A model generated the notes under the pieces. The model had not been told where the DNA came from. It did no database searches and worked only from the letters and a program-made list of their open reading frames with translations. This document shows positions 36,040 through 42,645 of a stretch of 64,000 nt of DNA, in pieces. The position numbers and the translations under genes are program-made. Numbering within the stretch: position 1 is the first letter of the stretch; each line of letters starts with the position of its first letter. The stretch is taken from positions 30,519 to 94,518 of IMG/VR virus record IMGVR_UViG_3300044695_005756; one strand, 5' to 3'. Origin of the DNA: a virus.

Positions 36040-36776
36040 TGTCATTTTCACCTAACGCATTTTTATCTAATGTTAATGCAAAGGAAGGGCTTGCAAGAAC
36101 CAATCGTTTTCAAGTTATATTACCTATACCGCCATACATTGCAGAATATGTGAGTAATTCTTTAATTGAAAGAATTTTAAATTTTCCTAATTCGATTATG
36201 TCTGACGTTACAGGTGCTATTAATGATGCTTTGGGTAGAAATAAAGATAAAGGATTTGAATCTGCTAATCCTGGCATGACAAGATATTTGGCACTACAAT
36301 GTGAATCTGCCGAACTTCCTGGTAAATCTTTCGTTACCGAAGACGTTAAGATATATGGACCAGTATTTAAAGTTCCTTATCAAGTGCAGTATGGAGAAAC
36401 CACACTAAACTTTATTTGCACGAATGATTTTTATGAGAGAAAACTTTTCGAGCGTTGGATGGAAGCAATCATGCCGACTGATACTAACAATCTTCGTTTC
36501 CCTAAAGGACAGAATTCAAAATACATGACTGAAATTACAGTCAAACAATATAACGATGATGTGAAGCAAATTTTTGGTGTCACATTTAAAGACGCCTTTC
36601 CAATCAACATGGCAGCACAACCTTTAAATTGGAGTGACGATGGCTTTCATCGTTTGAGTATACAATTTGCTTATCAAAAATACGTTCCAATTGTTGATAG
36701 TAAATACGACATTGGAGAAATAGTTACTTCAGCAGTTCAAGGTGGCGCTGGAGCAATTGGAAGAGCAATTTTTTAA
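36039..36776 (+). CDS. 54: Tail tube initiator gp54-like
   Basis: 245 aa from the ATG at 36039, which overlaps the previous stop codon; an in-frame TTG at 36012 is less likely. Tube-fold features are LQCESAELPGKSFVTEDVKI, YGPVFKVPYQVQYGETTLNF, FYERKLFERWMEAIMP, FGVTFKDAFPINMAAQPL, and FHRLSIQFAYQKYVP. These correspond to T4 gp54 VKMPENRLSYET, DWVNSV, VMFTGCIPISV and TFDVTFAYRV. gp54 starts tube polymerisation on the baseplate. The tail tube gp19 has the same fold but is shorter. Confidence 0.75.
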   Translation: MSFSPNAFLSNVNAKEGLARTNRFQVILPIPPYIAEYVSNSLIERILNFPNSIMSDVTGAINDALGRNKDKGFESANPGMTRYLALQCESAELPGKSFVTEDVKIYGPVFKVPYQVQYGETTLNFICTNDFYERKLFERWMEAIMPTDTNNLRFPKGQNSKYMTEITVKQYNDDVKQIFGVTFKDAFPINMAAQPLNWSDDGFHRLSIQFAYQKYVPIVDSKYDIGEIVTSAVQGGAGAIGRAIF

Positions 36777-36793: not shown

Positions 36794-37525
36794 ATGTTAC
36801 CTAAACTAGACGTACCGATTTATGAAACCAAATTAATTTCAAATGACCAAGTCGTTAGATTTCGTCCATTTCTGGTTAAAGAACAAAAACTCTTTTTGAT
36901 GGCAGCAGAATCAGAAGAACCAAAAGATACAATTAATGCTATCAAACAAGTATTGAGAAACTGTATATTAGATGACATAGATGTTGATAGCATGGCTACA
37001 TTTGATATTGAATATCTTTTTCTCCAACTTCGTGCCAGATCGATTGGTGAAGTTGTGAATCTCAGATTTAATTGCAATAACAATGTTACCGAAAAAGGTG
37101 AAGAAAAAAAGTGTGGCAACTTAGTTAAAATTGATATCAACGTGTTAGAAATTAATCCTACTAAAGACCAAGAACACACGAATAAAATACAAATTACAGA
37201 CAAAGTAGGAGTTGTGTTAAAGTATCCTACATTTAATTCTATTGATTCAAATGAGATTGATTCTCAAGACATGCAACAAGTTTTAAATGTGATTGTATCT
37301 TGTATTGATTATGTTTATGATGATGAACAAGTTTATTACGCGAAAGATACCAAAAAAGAAGAATTGATTGAGTTTATCGAAAACATGAAGCAAGGAGATT
37401 TGGAAAAACTGTCTTCTTTCTTTACGACATTACCTAAGTTGAAAAAAGACGTACAATTCCATTGCGATAAATGTGGGTATGAGGAAGACATTATTCTGGA
37501 AGGCGTTCAAAGTTTTTTCGGATAA
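36794..37525 (+). CDS. 26: Baseplate hub assembly protein gp26-like (zero-frame product)
   Basis: 243 aa (T4 gp26 is 208). It begins LDVPIYETKLISNDQVVRFR, PFLVKEQKLFLMA, and has a four-Cys zinc-ribbon-like set: C94 and C107, C224 and C227 (CDKCG). The zero frame ends SFFG at TAA 37523-37525. The position immediately before the tape-measure genes is that of tail assembly chaperones in other tailed phages. A slippery heptamer precedes the stop, so a longer -1 product is predicted (next entries). Confidence 0.87.
   Translation: MLPKLDVPIYETKLISNDQVVRFRPFLVKEQKLFLMAAESEEPKDTINAIKQVLRNCILDDIDVDSMATFDIEYLFLQLRARSIGEVVNLRFNCNNNVTEKGEEKKCGNLVKIDINVLEINPTKDQEHTNKIQITDKVGVVLKYPTFNSIDSNEIDSQDMQQVLNVIVSCIDYVYDDEQVYYAKDTKKEELIEFIENMKQGDLEKLSSFFTTLPKLKKDVQFHCDKCGYEEDIILEGVQSFFG
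37498..37519 (+). promoter_or_regulatory. Probable -1 ribosomal frameshift site at end of gp26
   Basis: The heptamer T TTT TTC (37513-37519) is in register with gp26 codons AGT TTT TTC and fits the X XXY YYZ -1 slippery pattern. A Shine-Dalgarno-like GGAAGG lies at 37498-37503, 9 nt upstream, as at the dnaX site. The zero-frame TAA comes two codons later. No strong downstream hairpin is obvious. Confidence 0.7.
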
Positions 37526-37716
37526 TTTTTAGTCATGAGACACTAGGTAATTACTTTCAAACTAACTTTGCATTAATGCAGCATCACAAATATAGTTTGA
37601 CAGAATTGGATAATTTGATGCCTTGGGAAAGACAAGTTTATATTGATTTGTTGTTGAAACACTTAGATGAAGAAGCAGAGAGAGTAAAAGAAGAAAAAAG
37701 ACGAGCCGCAAAATAA
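37519..37716 (+). CDS. 51: gp51-like C-terminal extension of gp26 in the -1 frame
   Basis: The -1 frame runs open from the slippery site to TAA 37714-37716, giving 65 residues starting RIIFSHETLGNYFQTNFALM and including HHKYSLTELDNLMPWERQVY and a charged C-terminal helix. The first in-frame ATG (37576) lies inside the conserved-looking part, has no Shine-Dalgarno, and would yield only 46 aa; the frame has no upstream ATG after the TGA at about 37482. So the product is best read as a 307-aa gp26-gp51 fusion made by frameshifting, with independent initiation at 37576 as the alternative. Confidence 0.7.
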   Translation, partial: RIIFSHETLGNYFQTNFALMQHHKYSLTELDNLMPWERQVYIDLLLKHLDEEAERVKEEKRRAAK

Positions 37717-37719
37717 AAA

Positions 37720-39999
37720 ATGGTCTACACTAAAACAACAGGTAAAATAGGAGTAATGGACATTCCTCCTAATCCTAAGAAAAAGACTCCTTCACAGTCT
37801 AAAAATGATCCTAACGTAATCTTAGGCAAAGTTGCCAAAGATGTTGCTGCTTTAAAAGTAAGTGTTTTAAAATTAGCTAAACTCTTTGAAGATGAAAAAA
37901 AGTCTGCTGCAATTGCTAGACAAAAGCAACGTGCGGAAGACTATGCGGCAAAATATAAAAGAGCAACGCCTACCAAAGCTGATCGTTCTGCTGTTAAAGA
38001 AAACAAAAAGTCTCTTTTAGATATGTTAAAAGAGGCTCTATCAAATATTTTTACCTTCATCATAGCGGGTCTTGCTGCAATCGGATTGTCTAAACTCCTA
38101 AGCGTGTCGGGAGTAATGGATACGATTACAGAATTTACCAAAAGATTAATTATCGGCATTTCTGAGTTACTTCAGAAAGGCATGAATTTTATATCAAGCA
38201 TAATAAAAGATCCTCAAGTAATTCAAACAATCTTCGATCTTGCAAAAACTATTCTTCAATTTATTGGTGATGCGATTACTGCTGGTGCAAAATTTTTCAG
38301 TAAATTTGTAAGTGATGCTGGTAATCAAAAAATTATTGGCGATATTATTGTTGCGATAATAAGTGGAATCGCAAGCGCAATTAAAGCCGCATATTCCATA
38401 ACAAAAAATATTCTATCTGAAAATTCTGATGCAATAAAAGAAGGCGCAATGAGCGTTTTCTTAGTCATAAAAGATATCATTGTAGGCACTTTAAAAGCTG
38501 GCCAGAGTATTCTTGGGAGTGCAGAATTAAAAGAACAATTTGTTTACATAGGCAATGCGATTATGAACTTCATTGGTCAAGTCATGAATATGCCTATTTT
38601 CGAAGTCAATGGAACTAAAGTTACTCTGAAACAAGCACTCATAGGACTTGCTGTTGCGACAACGGTCATGCAAGCAGGTATGTATTATGTAATTGGTGCA
38701 TTGCAAGGTCTTGGAATGAAAGCTGCTGGAATTAAATCTGGTCGTGGCGGTGGTTCTAAAGATGGTAAGCCCGAAACTGGAAAAGATGTACCAGGTGGCA
38801 AAGGCAAAAAAAGTCGCATGCCGTCATTTAATACGATTGTTGGAGCTGGAGCAACGGCATTTGCTGCATACGAAATTTATGATTTAATGAAGCCTGAAAA
38901 AACTGATCGTTCAACTGAGCCTTCTGATTCAACTTTCTCTTCTTCATCTACTTCACCAAAACCAAGTGGTGCATCCACAAAATCTGGATCGCAACAAAAT
39001 CAATCGCCGAATCAGAATTATTCTTTTGATGCAATGAAAACTAAAGTACAAAAGATGCTTGGTCTTGATACTTTTGGTGAAGGATCGAAGCTTTCCGATA
39101 GTGAATTGAAACGTCGAGCTAATGAATTTGGATTTCAACACGGAAGAACTGTAAAATATACCGACACAAATGGTCATCAAGCATCTTTTGTACATTCGGT
39201 TCATGCAGCTTTAGTTGATCCAAATTTACCGATACCTGAAGCTGGTGTAAATGTAAGAGATCCTAAAGCCATACAAAAAAATATTGATTTTTTCAAGAAA
39301 CAAGATCAAAACAATCCTGAAACTCTTTTCAAGATAGCTTTATATAAAGAGATGAAAAAGGATGCTGAACAGTATCAAAGAGTTAAAAATTTGATACCAT
39401 CTAGTGCTTCTGGTGACACATCATCTAAATCTCCGTCTAATCTCCAACCTGGAATGAAAGGCACTAGATTTGATCCTAATGTGAAAGCCATGCAAGACAA
39501 AATGTTGTCCAGAGATTCTGAAACATCGCAAGGATATGGTGGAAATGCATTACAAAGTATGGCTGCGGCTTCAACGCCAAGCATGTCATCTATGTCATCA
39601 ATGTCATCGATGGACAAAATGCTTGAGTCTATTACTGGTATGACTGGACAAAAAGACAAAGAGGGTCACGAATACGCATCTGGCGGAAGTGCGGAGAGTG
39701 GAGCAAGCGCAACCTCAGCAATGGGTGGTGTAGAAAAACCAAAAAGTATTATGGAATCTTTTGCAGATTCTTTAGGTGAAGGTTTAGCAAGTTTTGATAA
39801 AGCTACAGGAGGTAAATTAGGATTCGCTTCTACTGAACTTCAGACGTTGCTTCGTGATAAGAGTTTCTTGGAAGCTTTTGAGACTCCTGTATTTGCCGAT
39901 TCATCGAAAAACGTACAAAGCACAGACAATACTGCATTAAATGAAAAAACTCCTTCTGTATACGATGAAGTTCTTCTATCAAAAATGATGAGAGCATAA
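37720..39999 (+). CDS. Tape-measure-like tail protein, paralogue 1
   Basis: 759 aa. A Lys-rich N-terminus with a helical region (LKVSVLKLAKLFEDEKKSAA) is followed by a hydrophobic stretch around residues 100-130 (IFTFIIAGLAAIGLSKLL) and further hydrophobic helices to ~340, then a low-complexity Ser/Gly/Met-rich C-terminus. No enzyme motif. It shares its N-terminal plan with the next gene (helical Gln/Lys segment, hydrophobic helix, AILxGIxxxYSIxxKL-like segment). Position after the gp26/51 chaperone pair fits a tape measure, but T4 gp29 homology is not visible. Confidence 0.65.
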   Translation: MVYTKTTGKIGVMDIPPNPKKKTPSQSKNDPNVILGKVAKDVAALKVSVLKLAKLFEDEKKSAAIARQKQRAEDYAAKYKRATPTKADRSAVKENKKSLLDMLKEALSNIFTFIIAGLAAIGLSKLLSVSGVMDTITEFTKRLIIGISELLQKGMNFISSIIKDPQVIQTIFDLAKTILQFIGDAITAGAKFFSKFVSDAGNQKIIGDIIVAIISGIASAIKAAYSITKNILSENSDAIKEGAMSVFLVIKDIIVGTLKAGQSILGSAELKEQFVYIGNAIMNFIGQVMNMPIFEVNGTKVTLKQALIGLAVATTVMQAGMYYVIGALQGLGMKAAGIKSGRGGGSKDGKPETGKDVPGGKGKKSRMPSFNTIVGAGATAFAAYEIYDLMKPEKTDRSTEPSDSTFSSSSTSPKPSGASTKSGSQQNQSPNQNYSFDAMKTKVQKMLGLDTFGEGSKLSDSELKRRANEFGFQHGRTVKYTDTNGHQASFVHSVHAALVDPNLPIPEAGVNVRDPKAIQKNIDFFKKQDQNNPETLFKIALYKEMKKDAEQYQRVKNLIPSSASGDTSSKSPSNLQPGMKGTRFDPNVKAMQDKMLSRDSETSQGYGGNALQSMAAASTPSMSSMSSMSSMDKMLESITGMTGQKDKEGHEYASGGSAESGASATSAMGGVEKPKSIMESFADSLGEGLASFDKATGGKLGFASTELQTLLRDKSFLEAFETPVFADSSKNVQSTDNTALNEKTPSVYDEVLLSKMMRA

Positions 40000-42645
40000 A
40001 TGAATCCATTAGTATCGGTAGGTTTAAGCTTTAAATCAATACAAGCCAATATTGTAAAGATTGTAAAGTTAAAAGATCAAGAAAAACTTCAAAAAAAGTT
40101 TGATGAGGTACGCGCACGACAGCAATCTTATAAGGCTCGCTATCAACAAAAAACATCACCTAAAATTTCACGCGAAAGTTTAAAAGACTCTTCTCAAAGT
40201 TTTATGTCAATGCTGTCGGGCATGGGAAATTTATTGAAAGTTCTTTTTGCTCTTGTTGGTATTGCTGGAATATTTGCGATTCTAAAAAAATCAAAATTAG
40301 GTAACTATGTTCTTGAGTTTATTCAAAGTTCACTCACATCAATTATAGACTTAATTAAAAAATCATTCAGATTTATTCGTGACGTTTTTTCAGACTCCAG
40401 AGTTAAATTATCACTTTTTAATTTTATTGTTTCTTTCCTTAGATTTATTGGAACTTTAGTTGTCGCAGCAGCTTCATTAGCAATTAGTCTTTTGCGTGAT
40501 AGTGAAATTATCAATACAATCAAAACTACCATCGTTGCAGTATTTGTTGCAATATTGGACGGAATAAAAGCGACTTATAGTATCATATCAAAACTTGTAA
40601 TGGATAATTGGGACACGCTGAAGCAAGTCACATATGATATTTTCATTGAAATCAAAAATGCTCTTTTACTTGCATTGAAAACTGCTGGAACAATAGTTTC
40701 TGGTGGAATGGATCCTAGAATAACAGATGGTCTCAAAGAAATTTTTGTTGAAGCATGGCGATTCATAGTGGCATTATTCACAACAGAGTTTCAAGATCCT
40801 GATACAGGTAAAAAATTTACGTTACTGAAAGAAGGTGGTTTATGGGTAGCTGAAATGGCAGGTTTGGCTGCAGCGTGGATGATATTTGGCGCATGGATGA
40901 AAGAGAAAGGTAAAGCACTTTCAGGAATGAGTCTTTTAGATTTAAAAGAAGCTTGTTCTTCATGCATGGACATTCCTGATATAGACAAAGATAAAACAGG
41001 AAAGAAAAAACCAAAAGATATACCATCAAAAGGCAAAACTCCTGACAAAATTCCTCAAAAAGAAAAAGGTGTTATTGACAAAGTTACGGACTATACTAAA
41101 GAAACCTATCAAAAAGGAAAAGAATACGTAGGTAAAAAAATAACACAGGCTCGTAACGCGGTCGGTCAAGTTGTAGAATACGTTAGTGAAAAAGCCGCAC
41201 GAATAGGTGCAAAACTTGATGCTGGCTTTAAAGCACTCAAGACAAGAGTTAAAGTTGTTGCAGAAGCTTTGTATAAACCTTTAGTCGCAATGGTAAATAG
41301 TGATAAAATTAAAAGACTTCTGTTTACTGCTTTCGAAAAAAGATTTAAATCAGCAGCACTCGGCAGACTTAAAGTTTTTATTGTAGCACAGTTAGCAGGA
41401 CTTACAGCAGCAGCGGGATCAGGTGGTCTTGGCTTAGTCATCAATTTGTTATCCGCTGGTTTAGCAGCGTATGATTTATATTGTTTGTATGATCTATTGT
41501 TTGTATCTTCTGATGGTGAAAACGAAGATGGTGGTTTTTATCCTGTAATAAAAACTGAAGTTGAAAAGTGGTGGAAAGATCAAACAACACCATCTAAAGC
41601 AAGTGCTGGTCCAAAAATGCCTGAGTCTCAACCTGTAACTCAACAAGCACCATCAGCACCAACACCAGTTTCAGCTCCTAAAGTCAAAACACAACAATCC
41701 GCATCTGGAGTTATAGATTACTCAGCAGCACCAAAGCCTGAAACTTCATTTAAACAAGTATCAGCGCCTGTTGCTGCGACGGCTGCTACAACGGCAGCGG
41801 CATCAACTGCGCCATGTCAATGTCCTCCAACAATGGATACAGTAACTTCACCGCAAGACTTTCCTGCAAATTGGACTTCTGAAGTAGGAGTTGTTCCTGC
41901 TGGCATGTCAATGGAAAAACGTCAAGTTGGTGGACTTGGATATGGAGGTCAAAGAAAAAAAACAGACGGTGTAATTATACACCATACCGGTGGTAGCAGC
42001 ATTGACGTAGCAATTAGAACTCTACAAAACAGAAAACTCTCTTATCATTATTTGGTTGATAGAAACGGAAAAGTAGTTCAAATTTTACCAGATAATCTAG
42101 TCGGTTGGCATGCTGGAGACACAAACAAAAAACCAGCGTTTAATAACTATAATACCATAAGTATTTCAATGGTAGCAAAAGATGATAAAGATGTTACACC
42201 AGAACAAGTGGCAGCAGCAGCATCACTTGAAGCAATGCTTGCGAAAAAATATGGTTTTTCCAAAACAAATGCATTCGGACATGGTGAAGTGGCGTCATCT
42301 AAACAACCTACAGAAGGATTTACCATCGCAAATGCAATTCGTTCTGGTTCAGTAGGTCAAAAACTTCAAAATTTTGCAGATCAAACCATAGAAGAAGTGA
42401 AGCCTACAATTTCATCTGCGGCACAAACAGTCACACAAAAATCAGGAGAAGTATTAGATAGTGCATCTGGTATGGTAAGATCAGGACTTAGAACGCTTGA
42501 AGACATGTTCTTATCAAATCGTCCATCATTTACTGACTTATCAACAACAGTAATTCAAAATAACACGATTAGTAAACCTGGCGGTAATATGAAAGATAAA
42601 GAATCTCAGTCTTTTGAATTTTTAATAGCCCGCCAACTCAATTAA
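40000..42645 (+). CDS. Tape-measure-like tail protein with C-terminal amidase, paralogue 2
   Basis: 881 aa. The N-terminal ~300 residues match the plan of the preceding protein: basic helix, hydrophobic segments near 70-95 and 145-170, and an ILDGIKATYSIISKL segment. After a Pro/Ala-rich linker a type-2 amidase (PGRP/T7 lysozyme-like) domain occupies residues ~645-790: VIIHHTGG (H661, H662), LSYHYLVDRNGKVVQ, VGWHAGD, and AFGHGEV (H761) with a KQPTEG turn. It would cleave the N-acetylmuramoyl-L-alanine bond. Carried in the tail, it could open the wall during DNA injection. It starts directly after the previous stop. Confidence 0.8.
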   Translation: MNPLVSVGLSFKSIQANIVKIVKLKDQEKLQKKFDEVRARQQSYKARYQQKTSPKISRESLKDSSQSFMSMLSGMGNLLKVLFALVGIAGIFAILKKSKLGNYVLEFIQSSLTSIIDLIKKSFRFIRDVFSDSRVKLSLFNFIVSFLRFIGTLVVAAASLAISLLRDSEIINTIKTTIVAVFVAILDGIKATYSIISKLVMDNWDTLKQVTYDIFIEIKNALLLALKTAGTIVSGGMDPRITDGLKEIFVEAWRFIVALFTTEFQDPDTGKKFTLLKEGGLWVAEMAGLAAAWMIFGAWMKEKGKALSGMSLLDLKEACSSCMDIPDIDKDKTGKKKPKDIPSKGKTPDKIPQKEKGVIDKVTDYTKETYQKGKEYVGKKITQARNAVGQVVEYVSEKAARIGAKLDAGFKALKTRVKVVAEALYKPLVAMVNSDKIKRLLFTAFEKRFKSAALGRLKVFIVAQLAGLTAAAGSGGLGLVINLLSAGLAAYDLYCLYDLLFVSSDGENEDGGFYPVIKTEVEKWWKDQTTPSKASAGPKMPESQPVTQQAPSAPTPVSAPKVKTQQSASGVIDYSAAPKPETSFKQVSAPVAATAATTAAASTAPCQCPPTMDTVTSPQDFPANWTSEVGVVPAGMSMEKRQVGGLGYGGQRKKTDGVIIHHTGGSSIDVAIRTLQNRKLSYHYLVDRNGKVVQILPDNLVGWHAGDTNKKPAFNNYNTISISMVAKDDKDVTPEQVAAAASLEAMLAKKYGFSKTNAFGHGEVASSKQPTEGFTIANAIRSGSVGQKLQNFADQTIEEVKPTISSAAQTVTQKSGEVLDSASGMVRSGLRTLEDMFLSNRPSFTDLSTTVIQNNTISKPGGNMKDKESQSFEFLIARQLN

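Follow-up and report, generated by a model that had tools for sequence, protein, structure and literature searches.

The window analysed here is a 64,000-nucleotide stretch of an uncultivated virus record (IMG/VR IMGVR_UViG_3300044695_005756, 94.5 kb) that comes from a T4-like virus. Its genes run in the order tube-like, gp26, gp51 and tape-measure-like genes, so that the short form and the putative extended form of the gp26 product are encoded immediately upstream of the tape measure, where chaperones of the G/GT type are usually encoded. The features of the locus are as follows.

36042..36776, plus strand: tail-tube-like gene upstream of gp26 (phrog_45 tail tube, weak PF06841 gp19)
36794..37525, plus strand: gp26, putative short tail-assembly chaperone (TAC-N), 0 frame (PF12322 T4_baseplate, phrog_150)
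37498..37503, plus strand: Shine-Dalgarno-like GGAAGG, 9 nt from the heptamer, a probable weak stimulator
37513..37519, plus strand: slippery heptamer T TTT TTC, candidate -1 frameshift site (270/274 loci, 106/106 clusters)
37523..37525, plus strand: gp26 stop codon TAA, which ends the short product
37519..37716, plus strand: gp51 C-terminal domain in the -1 frame, 65 codons and TAA (phrog_634, 2e-26)
37720..39999, plus strand: first tape-measure-position gene, its role assigned from position, without a significant family match
40000..42645, plus strand: second tape-measure-like gene with a C-terminal Amidase_2 domain (phrog_4200 tail length tape measure, 8e-9; PF01510, 9e-22)

The gp26 protein is 243 aa long and matches Pfam PF12322 T4_baseplate (E=9e-62) and phrog_150 (9e-69), and AGGA stands upstream of its ATG. 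Its gene ends ...GAA GGC GTT CAA AGT TTT TTC GGA TAA, with T TTT TTC in the gp26 frame and a single codon between the heptamer and TAA. This in-phase X XXY YYZ heptamer falls inside the overlap of the gp26 and -1 frames, as is characteristic of a programmed -1 frameshift gene. From 37519 the -1 frame stays open for 65 codons up to the TAA at 37714-37716, and its product matches phrog_634, "baseplate hub assembly catalyst", so that the locus carries both marks of the T4 gp26/gp51 family, the PF12322 domain and the gp51 C-terminal domain. The earliest ATG of the -1 frame is codon 20 (37576), with no GTG or TTG before it, and ATG, GTG and TTG are absent from the 12 open -1-frame codons upstream of the slip site. 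Ahead of that first ATG lies the conserved -1-frame sequence RI-SH--L-NY--TNFALMQHH. Across the window ORFs of at least 100 aa, T TTT TTN occurs in frame 10 times in 18,404 codons, and just once within 12 nt of a stop.

An earlier note, made from the window sequence, had located an in-phase T TTT TTC close ahead of the gp26 stop, a GGAAGG 9 nt before the heptamer and a 65-codon -1 frame lacking a proper start, and its coordinates and description are right on all three points. It had also called that frame gp51-like, which holds for the phrog_634 match, with the qualification that the 65-aa piece is only the C-terminal domain of T4 gp51 (249 aa). Of the two tape-measure-like genes that it saw downstream, the second is borne out by phrog_4200, and the first is such by position only. 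With its Amidase_2 domain, the 881-aa second protein joins a cell-wall enzyme to a tail protein.

How widely is the slip site kept? Among the 80 closest IMG/VR loci (gp26 identity 58-86%), 79 continue past the junction, and all 79 have CAA-A[GA]T-TTT-TTC-Gnn-TA[AG] with gp51 in the -1 frame. A wider set was assembled from five more searches, seeded with cyanophage, Pelagibacter, Sinorhizobium, T4 and S-CRM01 gp26, and from GenBank records; it holds 274 loci with a complete gp26 end, which form 106 clusters at 85% nucleotide identity. In 270 loci an in-frame T TTT TT[C/T/G] leads into 35 or more open -1 codons with gp51, and the four without the heptamer are T4 or its close relatives (T4-type). 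The in-frame T TTT TTN is present in 106/106 clusters, and clustering at 75%, which gives 57 clusters, leaves the pattern intact. When codon usage is pooled for Phe, Asn, Asp and Ser, P is ~10^-39 for the retention of xxT TTT in all clusters, a figure that shared ancestry makes overstated. The same type of heptamer is found in Stenotrophomonas phage Mendera, Aeromonas phage phiAS5, Vibrio phage D491s and Rhizobium phage RHph_I1_18. The comparison of junctions in relatives that the earlier note had proposed thus returns a conserved heptamer.

The signal is kept in every non-T4-type relative found at the junction, except in one distant branch: ECML-4 (Ackermannviridae) and Vibrio phage K387 have a gp51-like domain in the -1 frame, without T TTT TTN. 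The ECML-4 and K387 junctions read A ATT TTC or A CTT TTC, which resembles slip sites of the T7 gene 10 type, and in ECML-4 the gp51-like domain has been left unannotated. Relatives with their own gp51 start and Shine-Dalgarno sequence and no slippery site, which the earlier note had named as the case against frameshifting, were sought, and the departures that came to light were the T4-type loci, with an in-frame fusion, and the ECML-4/K387 branch, where gp51 is still in the -1 frame.

The substitution pattern changes register at the same place. The freely varying positions are the third positions of the gp26 frame before the heptamer and those of the -1 frame from the heptamer on, and this phase change sits at the heptamer, well ahead of the usual first ATG (codon 20). 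Over codons 1-18 after the slip, pairwise differences in the window clade number 1292, 824 and 2446 at -1-frame positions 1, 2 and 3. Over the 44 codons past the slip, stops occur in the -1 frame in 0/106 clusters and in the 0 and +1 frames in 106/106. From its upstream stop as far as the slip site, the -1 frame is without ATG, GTG and TTG in 96/106 clusters; after the slip, the first ATG ranges from codon 1 to codon 33, and several loci have no ATG, GTG or TTG before codon 32. Most loci have the gp26 stop 9 nt past the start of the first slip codon, and elsewhere it is displaced, to 30 nt in the Mosig group, 12 nt in phiN3, 15 nt in three other loci and 33 nt in RHph_I1_18. Where it is displaced, the position of the heptamer relative to the gp51 domain is unchanged.

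GenBank annotates gp51 as an independent gene, and it could be argued that it is a separate small gene, started from an internal ATG (codon 20 in the window) by reinitiation after the gp26 stop. Met is common at -1-frame codons 19-20, and some relatives have an ATG 1-4 codons past the slip site, which in several of them overlaps the stop (S-CRM01, AF3). However, -1-frame conservation extends over the block before the codon 19-20 Met, the position of the first ATG varies as described, the codon-20 ATG of the window is without a Shine-Dalgarno sequence, and reinitiation would neither conserve a heptamer nor hold it in place as the stop moves. Because the heptamer is static while the stop moves, the -1 frame is conserved before the ATG and starts are few, independent initiation does not explain the pattern, and we regard it as highly improbable. 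An independent start as the sole source of gp51 was rejected on the start-codon survey, which found no usable start; in the few clades where an ATG adjoins the stop, an own-start product could occur alongside the frameshifted one. In the GenBank records of S-RSM4, S-PM2, Melnitz, HTVC008M, S-RIM2 and S-WAM2, gp51 is either an independent gene with differing -1 starts or omitted, and its conserved sequence in those records begins at the slip site.

Taken with the comparative data, -1 frameshifting at T TTT TTC very probably makes a gp26-gp51 fusion, and the -1-frame gp51 domain is predicted to be made as part of that fusion (TAC-NC). What the sequence comparison shows is the heptamer, how the two frames relate, selection on each of them and the homology of the fusion to T4 gp51.

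What might stimulate the shift? A complement to the anti-Shine-Dalgarno of at least 4 nt lies within 22 nt upstream in 76/106 clusters, versus 30% of random in-gene positions, mostly at a spacing of 8-10 nt from the heptamer, and at the relevant Glu codon GAG was observed 31 times against 13 expected (P=2e-7). The element of the window is the weaker AAGG form, and many of the cyanophage and Pelagibacter phage loci carry a stronger GGAGGG. No unusual downstream RNA structure is predicted at the slip site (z=0.00), which led us to reject such a structure as stimulator; any stimulation therefore rests on the Shine-Dalgarno-like element and the nearby stop. The -1 frameshift of dnaX uses A AAA AAG, with a Shine-Dalgarno-like element about 10 nt upstream and a downstream stem-loop. 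The gp26 site is like dnaX in having such an element upstream of a homopolymeric heptamer and unlike it in the lack of a detected downstream structure.

The T run itself, of at least six T at the site and of eight in 5/106 clusters, raises the alternative that RNA polymerase rather than the ribosome slips there. Exactly six T are present in 95/106 clusters, which is short for productive transcriptional slippage and disfavours it, and both the in-phase X XXY YYZ arrangement and the Shine-Dalgarno-like element at 8-10 nt are ribosomal features; we consider a transcriptional origin of the frame change extremely improbable. We infer that the slippage is ribosomal, and likewise its efficiency.

The T4 genes 26 and 51 are divergently transcribed. 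A complete PF12322 domain (residues 1-201, 4e-52) and the phrog_634 domain (147-246, 1e-23) are both present in T4 gp51 (249 aa), and in a profile alignment the relatives of T4 gp51 are colinear end to end with the fused -1 products (E=1e-24), with an ungapped junction that sets VFKLLV against FFRIIF. T4 gp51 is thus an in-frame fusion of gp26 and gp51, and the second gene of T4 encodes what the window would make by frameshifting. T4 gp26 retains the EFF motif, but with the codons TTC TTT it has no heptamer, and T4 was rejected as a 26/51 frameshifter since the genes are divergent and the heptamer is lost. The two arrangements are alike in their short gp26, their long gp26-gp51 fusion and their homologous domains, colinear across the junction; they differ in that the long form is a separate in-frame gene in T4, whereas the window has one gene and a slip site. 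In a gp26-domain tree of 53 rows, the long forms fall in one well-supported group and the T4-type stands apart from the frameshifting rows, although the tree is unrooted, has long branches and does not prove the direction of change. In Klebsiella phage CP-p-KP-21068 a long gp51 and a short gp26 are neighbours on one strand and overlap by 4 nt, a two-gene layout that differs from the divergent one of T4. Within the Straboviridae, phiAS5 keeps the frameshift arrangement, and T4 and 44RR encode the fused long form in frame.

The lambda-like -1 frameshift that the earlier note had proposed is therefore upheld by an invariant heptamer, a frame switch, the lack of a usable start, a stop that moves while the heptamer stays and a colinear T4 fusion. 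The heptamer of lambda G/GT is G GGA AAG. The window locus differs in its T TTT TTC, in belonging to a contractile T4-like phage and in a gp26 fold without a significant match to lambda-type chaperones. It resembles lambda gpG/gpGT in its putative short chaperone and minor -1 fusion, with a slip site where the upstream frame ends, just before the tape-measure gene (PMC5009743). The tape measure is the binding partner of gpG in lambda, and the tube protein that of the T part of the minor gpGT (PMC5009743), and by analogy gp26 and the gp51 domain may divide the labour in the same way. There is also a comparative case for poly-T -1 frameshifting at a conserved site in the tail chaperone of a myovirus from another phage group, the Vandenendeviridae/Andersonviridae (Pseudomonas phage Adele), with the different motif GTTTTT (PMC12846349). 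The cyanophages S-PM2, S-RSM4 and P-SSM2 and the Pelagibacter phage HTVC008M share with the window the gene order, T TTT TT[CT] and the -1 gp51 domain; they differ in annotation, gp51 being an independent gene with inconsistent starts or absent in GenBank.

That gp26 and gp26-gp51 act as tail-assembly chaperones is quite likely. The AlphaFold model of gp26 (pLDDT 88) gave 3fgx (Foldseek probability 0.89) and the HK97 tail assembly chaperone gp13 (2ob9; probability 0.54, rmsd 2.8 over 63 columns) as its two highest-probability fold matches, both with E > 0.7, the HK97 gp13 match not being significant alone. A Phage_TAC_3 match in one relative (0.018) was below cutoff, a sequence search of gp26 against the PDB found no relative, and a fold search with T4-like gp51 returned nothing useful. 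Classical T4 work puts gp26 in the hub (PMC3004832), and together with the lack of a significant PDB match in the gp26 fold search this would suit a different role, in which the -1 product exists but gp26 and gp51 are baseplate hub subunits or a hub catalyst rather than chaperones of the lambda G/GT class. However, the same source tabulates both T4 proteins as hub assembly chaperones, with gp51 absent from the final particle (PMC3004832), HK97 gp13 is among the best non-spurious fold matches, the locus stands before the tape measure, and the short/long architecture is conserved. The tail-chaperone assignment has moreover been published by Vladimirov, Gautam and Davidson (2022, Virology 566:9-15), as cited in PMC10885494 and PMC12846349, and a hub role in place of a chaperone role is in our view unlikely.

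The earlier note had placed T4-type gp26/gp51 in the chaperone class; position and the published assignment support this, the placing was already in print, and T4 itself is not a frameshifter. As described through PRFect (PMC10885494), Vladimirov et al. reported that in some T4-like phages one short gene and one longer fusion gene replace frameshifting, and the Adele paper (PMC12846349), citing the same work, treats poly-T slip sites as known in T4-like chaperone genes. As far as these citing papers convey it, the class had been assigned before, and frameshifting had probably also been recognised already for part of the T4-like group; what is added here is a new member, and comparative evidence in its breadth and strength.

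In the mechanism that we propose, gp26 and the downstream -1 frame would constitute a tail-assembly chaperone gene of the lambda G/GT type. Most ribosomes would end at the gp26 TAA and yield the short chaperone, and a minority would slip -1 on T TTT TTC, by tandem re-pairing of two Phe tRNAs, to make a 307-aa gp26-gp51 fusion. The frequency of slipping would presumably set the ratio of short to long form. As for function in tail assembly, which we infer as well, both forms may coat the tape measure and recruit tail-tube subunits in hub and tube assembly.

The gene in the tape-measure position starts at, or no more than 5 nt from, the gp51 stop in 81/99 loci, and in 40 the two overlap by one base. 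The window has 3 nt between the gp51 stop and this gene (37714-37722) and no recognisable Shine-Dalgarno sequence, and this closeness suggests that tape-measure translation is coupled to shifted ribosomes. A bolder reading, which we put forward as a doubtful possibility, is that frameshifting is general and ancestral in T4-like phages, that T4 gene 51 is a single derived duplication-fusion and that shifted ribosomes also supply tape-measure translation, the last part resting on the start within 5 nt of the gp51 stop. If it were true, one slip site would tie the chaperone ratio to the dose of tape measure.

The comparative data make a large case that in many T4-like phages outside the coliphage group the long tail chaperone is a product of -1 frameshifting at a single invariant heptamer, T4, the textbook model, being an exception with a hard-coded fusion. 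This would correct the GenBank entries of the relatives examined, in which gp51 is a free-standing "catalyst" with arbitrary starts, or is omitted, and it would offer a natural comparison between a ratio set by a slip site and a ratio set by two genes for the same two proteins.
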